DNA from: Candidatus Nitrosocosmicus agrestis
Lineage (GTDB): Archaea > Thermoproteota > Nitrososphaeria > Nitrososphaerales > Nitrososphaeraceae
Length of the DNA stretch: 64,000 bases
Direction of reading: 5' to 3'
Assembly (NCBI RefSeq): GCF_008389435.1
Contig: NZ_VUYS01000014.1
Coordinates: forward strand, 1 to 64,000
Below the pieces are notes generated by a model. It ran no database searches. It was not told the DNA's origin and saw only the letters and a program-made list of their open reading frames with translations. Made by a program: the position numbers and the translations under genes. Positions 39,833 through 47,992 of this stretch are shown here, piece after piece (position 1 is the first letter of the stretch; each line of letters starts with the position of its first letter).

Positions 39833-40152
39833 GATGGGGTAGCCCATTAGTACCAACATGCATAGAAGGCCCCATTTCAAATTCTTCCAAATCCACCACG
39901 TAGACGTAACAGCACGGCTGCGATGCCTTAGGGTTGCTCCCTCCCGGACCTCACCCATTTCAACAATTCGCAGTCAATTTTACACCTTCGTGTAAGTTGC
40001 TGCTCATAGCCATCCGATACGGCATGATTTCATACTAGTCGAATGAGCGGGTATTCTCCCATTCACGAATTTACCTAACGGTTACTGATCTCGACATAAA
40101 GCCGATTTTCGATATGGGGTACGGCTAGCACCCCGATCCTACCTACCCCATC
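39833..40152 (-). ncRNA. signal recognition particle RNA (archaeal 7S)
   Basis: About 320 bases. The ends pair (GATGGGGTAG at the 5' side with CTACCCCATC at the 3' side), forming helix 5. The central part holds the conserved helix 8: GTCCGGGAGGGAGCAACCC, including the GNAR-type and asymmetric-loop bases bound by SRP54. It is transcribed opposite to nothing and stands between the hypothetical and the thermosome genes. The partner receptor gene ftsY is at 51.9-53.3 kb in this window. End positions are approximate. Confidence 0.9.
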
Positions 40153-47725: not shown

Positions 47726-47817
47726 ATTACTCATGATTATGATTTCCTAACACATTTCCTATTGATCAGAGATAAAATAAAATATTGGACATTCTCTCCG
47801 ATTATTGTAGCTCGTGA

Positions 47818-47946
47818 AGCCCGGTCGAACCAAATCAATTGGTGCCGAATCTAGCGGTCAACTCCTAAAAGGAGGCTAAGGATTTCAGGCTCTGGATCTT
47901 ATAGAAAAGAAACCTGGAGACAGCAGTTCGAATCTGCTCCGGGCTA
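47818..47946 (+). tRNA. tRNA-Gln (CUG) with three apparent introns
   Basis: The acceptor AGCCCGG (47818-47824) pairs with CCGGGCT (47939-47945), A73 at 47946. The T arm is AGCAG-TTCGAAT-CTGCT. The anticodon arm TCAGG-CTCTGGA-CCTGG gives anticodon CUG at 47892-47894. Three insertions must be removed: 22 bases at 47826-47847 between positions 8 and 9, 18 bases at 47862-47879 in the D loop, and 16 bases at 47896-47911 after position 37. The remainder is exactly 73 nt with a D stem ATCT/GGAT. The first two insertions each contain a self-pairing hairpin (CCAA...TTGG; CTCC...GGAG). Exact borders are inferred from pairing. Confidence 0.8.
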
Positions 47947-47992
47947 CTTTTTTTAAAATATTCATCGTATTTCATTCACTTTTTATAATTGA

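Follow-up and report, generated by a model that had tools for sequence, protein, structure and literature searches.

The gene at positions 47818–47946 (+) of the window (the whole stretch of DNA analysed, 64,000 nt) was identified from its sequence as a real tRNA-Gln(CUG) gene of 129 nt with three bulge-helix-bulge (BHB) introns of 22, 18 and 16 nt, and its first intron was found to be coupled, among Gln genes of the order and class, to a copy of the acceptor 5′ strand in the leader. The gene is probably functional, its three introns being cut by an (alpha-beta)2 endonuclease and its exons joined by RtcB, while the leader copy would serve as a stand-in strand. What looks new is the coupling of the leader copy to the intron at 10/11, multi-intron tRNAs being already known; leader–acceptor pairing coupled to a tRNA intron is not mentioned in the open literature searched.

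The sequence shows an acceptor, a T arm and an anticodon loop, together with the three insertions. Neither ARAGORN nor the Rfam tRNA model detected the gene. A custom fitter was applied that lists every BHB-compatible intron (a central helix of 4 nt, bulges of 3 nt with the cut behind the second base, and an inner helix) and then scores the joined cloverleaf. Its optimum contained exactly three introns, at gene positions 11–32, 45–62 and 79–94, and gave a 73-nt mature tRNA, AGCCCGGTCGTCTAGCGGTCAAGGATTTCAGGCTCTGGACCTGGAGACAGCAGTTCGAATCTGCTCCGGGCTA; none of 3000 dinucleotide shuffles of the gene middle equalled the score of the real sequence. A preliminary description had proposed a tRNA-Gln(CUG) of 73 nt after loss of 22, 18 and 16 bases, with the second and third introns in the D loop and after position 37, and this unbiased search returned three introns of these lengths and both of these positions (the latter as 37/38). 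Among the checks which that description had named were BHB folds at each junction, which were present (4, 4 and 3 of 4 central-helix pairs), and a tRNA finder, where the answer was divided: the multi-intron fitter recovered the three introns and the two standard models missed the gene. All hallmarks of Gln(CUG) were found in the product (anticodon CUG, U33, U8, A14, G18G19, TTC loop, A1–U72 pair and A73); it agrees with orthologues that naturally lack intron 1, and its layout is that of the 73-nt intronless Gln tRNAs of Methanomicrobiales.

Table 1. Features of the tRNA-Gln(CUG) locus (window positions).
Feature	Positions	Strand	Remarks
A/T-rich box AGATAAAATAAAATA	47770..47784	+	Conserved in 13 congeners; 34–48 nt upstream of the tRNA gene; probable TATA/BRE region, a presumed promoter element
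Leader copy AGCTCG	47809..47814	+	Copy of acceptor 5′ strand AGCCCG; can pair with 3′ strand CGGGCT, with one G-U
Exon 1	47818..47827	+	tRNA positions 1–10, AGCCCGGTCG
Intron 1	47828..47849	+	22 nt, at 10/11; central helix CGGU/GCCG (acceptor nt 5–8), inner helix ACCAA/UUGGU
Exon 2	47850..47861	+	D stem 5′ side and D loop, TCTAGCGGTCAA
Intron 2	47862..47879	+	18 nt, in D loop; central helix GGUC/GGCU
Exon 3	47880..47895	+	D stem 3′ side and anticodon stem 5′ side, through position 37; anticodon CTG at 47892–47894
Intron 3	47896..47911	+	16 nt, at canonical 37/38; central helix CUCU/AAAG with C34·A mismatch, inner helix UCU/AGA
Exon 4	47912..47946	+	Position 38 through discriminator A73; CCA not encoded
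Seven-T run	47948..47954	+	Directly 3′ of the gene; possible terminator; not conserved in congeners

Intron boundaries (Table 1) were checked by pairing across relatives. For intron 1, the position at 8/9 given in the preliminary description was rejected in favour of 10/11, on BHB pairing and on intronless orthologues: with 10/11 the central helix was paired in 172/172 cells (43 distinct relatives), whereas with 8/9 it was paired in just 43 of the same number; genes of the same family and order without intron 1 run AGCCCGG-TCG-TCTAG uninterrupted, so exon 1 extends to G10. The central helix covaried (a G6-C to C6-G swap that tracks the acceptor, and U8-G to U8-A changes), and pairing of the inner helix reached 94.8% of cells, compared with 68.9% when partners were permuted among species (0/5000). 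The central helix of intron 2 was paired in 168/168 cells (42 relatives); its cut site in the gene is ambiguous by at most 2 nt, with the same product, because of a repeated AA. For intron 3, 159/200 cells were paired across relatives, and the one C34·A mismatch, which makes this a slightly relaxed BHB motif, is kept in 39 of 50 distinct introns. The intron strand AAAG would pair perfectly with CUUU, as in U34 anticodons, and meets C34 here; the conserved mismatch is a hint that intron 3 may have originated in a U34 tRNA. Removal of the three introns at BHB motifs is thus supported by structure, covariation and conservation, and this much of the earlier proposal stood, the position of the first intron excepted.

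A match to the three-intron gene was present in 58 of the 61 sampled genomes, and most same-family genomes had the full-length three-intron form. Every one of 41 distinct three-intron genes matures to exactly 73 nt, with identities of 96.6% over exons and of 50%, 69% and 71% over the three introns. This combination of conserved exons, divergent introns and constant length excludes a pseudogene; taken together with a chance cloverleaf, such a reading, in whose favour it may be said that standard finders miss the gene, has a negligible probability, since the mature sequence is intact in all these genes and a pattern search found two Gln tRNA genes in the genome, with CUG in this one only. The rarity first ascribed to three introns in one gene did not hold in the sense of a single-genome oddity, nearly all sampled family members having the gene, and Pyrobaculum had earlier been reported to have tRNAs with three introns (PMC4390854). 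Outside the family the intron pattern varies: in some other families (L034, L038, L045, L050, L148) the D-arm intron of Gln(CUG) lies near 24/25, not in the D loop, and these introns share AGGGCTA, possibly through intron sliding or replacement; the Gln(CUG) of another family (L239) has three introns at different positions (about 14/15, D loop and 37/38).

Several other RNA genes were recorded. Within the same genome, loci L196, L201, L203, L214, L219 and L199 include an apparent tRNA-Ser(UGA) with two introns, introns at 15/16 in two Glu, one Asp and one Arg(CCU) tRNA, and one at 30/31 in Pro(GGG). A second tRNA-Cys(GCA) (L189, G000:C24:34196-34269) has a broken acceptor stem. An archaeal SRP RNA lies in the window at 39834–40151 (−), with a score just above the Rfam cut-off.

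For splicing, the genome holds two PF01974 endonuclease subunit genes and one PF01139 gene (RtcB ligase). The alpha subunit (199 aa) keeps the catalytic His (Ala in the 3ajv chain), has the loop SKPK and matches Sulfolobus tokodaii 2cv8 (E 2e-42) and Aeropyrum pernix 3p1z; its segment YYGKPLGISKPK, aligned to YYGKPIGISKPK, corresponds to the crenarchaea-specific loop. The beta subunit (240 aa) is without the catalytic His. Catalytic and structural subunits are separate, and alpha carries the K-P/V-K/R loop motif defined in PMC12397907; from the genes an (alpha-beta)2 endonuclease is predicted whose alpha subunit has the crenarchaeal broad-specificity loop. The Lys of this loop confers broad specificity (PMC6379350, PMC12397907), and relaxed motifs are cleaved by crenarchaeal-type enzymes (PMC6379350). 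The suggestion that three introns in one gene would be informative about endonuclease specificity was borne out in that alpha has the K-P-K motif known from Crenarchaea. The likeness to crenarchaeal enzymes lies in the alpha match, the loop and the catalytic His; the difference is the source of the predicted enzyme, a genome of the Nitrosocosmicus group.

Acceptor positions 5–8 take part in the BHB of intron 1, which therefore competes with the acceptor stem. During parsing of 5′ ends the sequence of the acceptor 5′ strand was seen to recur just upstream of nucleotide 1, an element that the preliminary description does not mention. A leader copy was scored where an uninterrupted run of 6 or more pairs with the acceptor 3′ strand of the same gene could form at most 16 nt upstream, and counts cover the Gln genes sampled in the order and class. 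Of these, 99/102 with the 10/11 intron had the copy (the three others have imperfect copies by eye) versus 3/55 without it; it was also present in 1/34 other tRNAs of the genome and in 0/16 intronless Gln genes of Methanomicrobiales. The association of intron and copy (INDEPENDENCE) persisted inside groups of these Gln genes: both elements or neither were present in, respectively, 2 and 7 Gln(CUG) genes of genus g12, 1 and 4 Gln(CUG) genes of family f2, 2 and 5 Gln(UUG) genes of f13, and 7 and 8 Gln(UUG) genes of f9, where one more gene had the copy only and four genes with an anticodon left unassigned by the script are included. Stratified exact tests gave a product of ~2e-7, a value to be read with the relatedness of genomes in a lineage and without full phylogenetic correction. 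Where just one of a genome's two Gln genes had the intron, the copy stood at that gene only (20/20; 19 UUG and 1 CUG, from eight lineages). All 42 differences between copy and acceptor in the paired run were C-to-T or A-to-G, so that pairing is kept as G-U; this is partly built in because runs were selected for pairing. The copy helix was weaker than the true acceptor helix in 76/99 genes and equal in 23/99. Most Gln(CUG) genes have lost position 7 of the copy, a point against the stand-in. The A/T-rich promoter peak lies near −37 (CUG) and −34 (UUG) in genes with the intron versus −29 in other tRNAs and intronless Gln genes, an upstream shift which suggests that the copy lies in the transcribed leader. 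The copy was also read as the true 5′ end, with an intron between copy and gene; this was discarded because the BHB geometry did not fit (checked by hand).

Related arrangements were noted at other loci. The other Gln gene of the genome, Gln(UUG) (L204, G000:C38:25313-25401), has a 16-nt intron also at 10/11 and a GCCCGG leader copy, and the combination of this type occurs across many families of the order. Gln(CUG) genes of family f4 without the 10/11 intron (L035, L037, L243) have an AGCCCGG copy 25–28 nt upstream, which in two of the three could form a leader hairpin with GGGCT. In an intronless tRNA-Met (L172, G000:C26:54135-54209) the leader GGCTGGG resembles the acceptor strand GCCGGGG.

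The elements, their conservation and their coupling were observed in the genes themselves, and we infer from them each step of the following route. In the precursor the leader copy would take the place of the true 5′ strand opposite the acceptor 3′ strand, while the true 5′ strand (C5 G6 G7 U8) would pair with GCCG of intron 1 and form the first BHB (BHB1). The (alpha-beta)2 endonuclease would then cut intron 1 and RtcB would ligate the exons; the true 5′ strand would displace the weaker-or-equal stand-in, the acceptor stem would close, and RNase P would trim the leader last. Since the leader would be needed while intron 1 is cut, intron 1 would be spliced before 5′ maturation, and intron gain or loss would be accompanied by gain or loss of the leader copy. 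We lean towards this general form, in which the 5′ leader is a temporary acceptor strand, intron and leader are gained and lost jointly and splicing at 10/11 precedes RNase P.

The cost of forming BHB1 was computed by folding. In Gln(UUG)-type genes with the intron, the native copy cut the cost in 62/62 (two with unassigned anticodon), the means being 0.34 kcal/mol with the native copy, 4.93 with the copy mutated and 5.34 without leader. The corresponding values for Gln(CUG) were 2.34, 4.35 and 6.02 kcal/mol, and the native copy was better than the mutated leader in 26/37 (p=2e-5); whole-leader shuffles gave the native leader of the Gln(CUG) class no folding advantage, and in Nitrosocosmicus Gln(CUG) the effect was essentially absent. 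For the window gene the cost was 6.6 kcal/mol without and 2.7 with leader, a value equalled by 35% of random 6-mers; in its 5′ part alone, as transcribed ahead of the 3′ strand, BHB1 had a probability of 0.93, so that the stand-in may act kinetically there. By these models, folding support for the stand-in is strong for Gln(UUG) and equivocal for the window gene.

The same observations were weighed under other explanations. This could be an ordinary multi-intron tRNA with a copy that either acts in the DNA, as part of the promoter or start site, or remains from intron insertion, and that stays with the intron through shared descent and not through function. Related species do share states, copy spacing is fairly constant within groups and the window gene's own copy has no clear folding advantage; this account is nevertheless unlikely, as copies differ between the two Gln genes (AGCTCG for CUG, GCCCGG for UUG) and track acceptor changes, AGCCCCG copies being carried by AGCCCCG genes (4/4) and not by AGCCCGG genes. 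It is further opposed by the loss of the copy with the intron within one genus (g12), by the same-genome contrasts and by the scarcity of such leaders among the other tRNAs of the genome.

The leader–acceptor pairing could also be real and yet serve to postpone RNase P cleavage, or 3′ processing, to after splicing, and not to free the 5′ strand. Bacterial RNase P is slowed by pairing of the leader with the tRNA 3′ end (PMC9433436), which fits an order of splicing before trimming under either reading, and if nothing delayed it, 5′ trimming would take off the leader early, following the order of Methanopyrus kandleri, where end trimming precedes intron removal (PMC3695527). That order is the reverse of the one predicted for the 10/11 intron and counts against the stand-in. 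A pure delay is still quite unlikely, because it leaves unexplained why the copy is restricted to an intron whose BHB takes acceptor nucleotides; such a leader is missing from all four tRNAs of the genome with a 15/16 intron. Very improbable is a third account, in which a relaxed motif at intron 1, such as U8C9G10 paired with CGA, would be cleaved by the endonuclease without opening of the acceptor stem: RNAfold favours a closed acceptor in the spliced-down precursor and, as noted above, crenarchaeal-type enzymes accept relaxed motifs, but this alternative structure was dropped because its pairing is not conserved (C9 changes to G or A), and CGGU/GCCG is paired in every cell with compensatory change.

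If the stand-in reading is right, a throw-away tRNA leader would be part of the splicing machinery, which would account for intron placement where the splice-site structure would open the acceptor stem. It would also give a sharp prediction of maturation order for ammonia-oxidising archaea, opposite to that of Methanopyrus, and several separate lineages in which intron and leader were gained or lost together would serve as natural replicates for tRNA intron turnover.

Among known systems, the tRNAscan-SE 2.0 survey counted 107 non-canonical tRNA introns in Thaumarchaeota, the same phylum-level group and intron class as the Gln(CUG) introns; the accessible part of this paper, which is about intron finding, does not mention a leader element (PMC8450103). 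In the related archaeon Caldiarchaeum subterraneum multiple introns are likewise reported for a tRNA with a CUG anticodon, tRNA[CUG], printed as tRNA-Glu[CUG] (PMC3293823), whether or not the two genes are homologous. In Thermoproteales, three small BHB introns occur in one tRNA gene, for example in Pyrobaculum calidifontis tRNA-Glu(UUC) and in P. islandicum tRNA-Pro(UGG), the latter with one canonical intron and two elsewhere; no coupled leader copy is described in the accessible portions of these papers (PMC4390854, PMC4090602). As far as these portions go, the likeness lies in three small BHB introns per gene; the gene described here differs in the tRNA concerned, in the intron positions (10/11, D loop and 37/38) and in belonging to a group of soil ammonia oxidisers.
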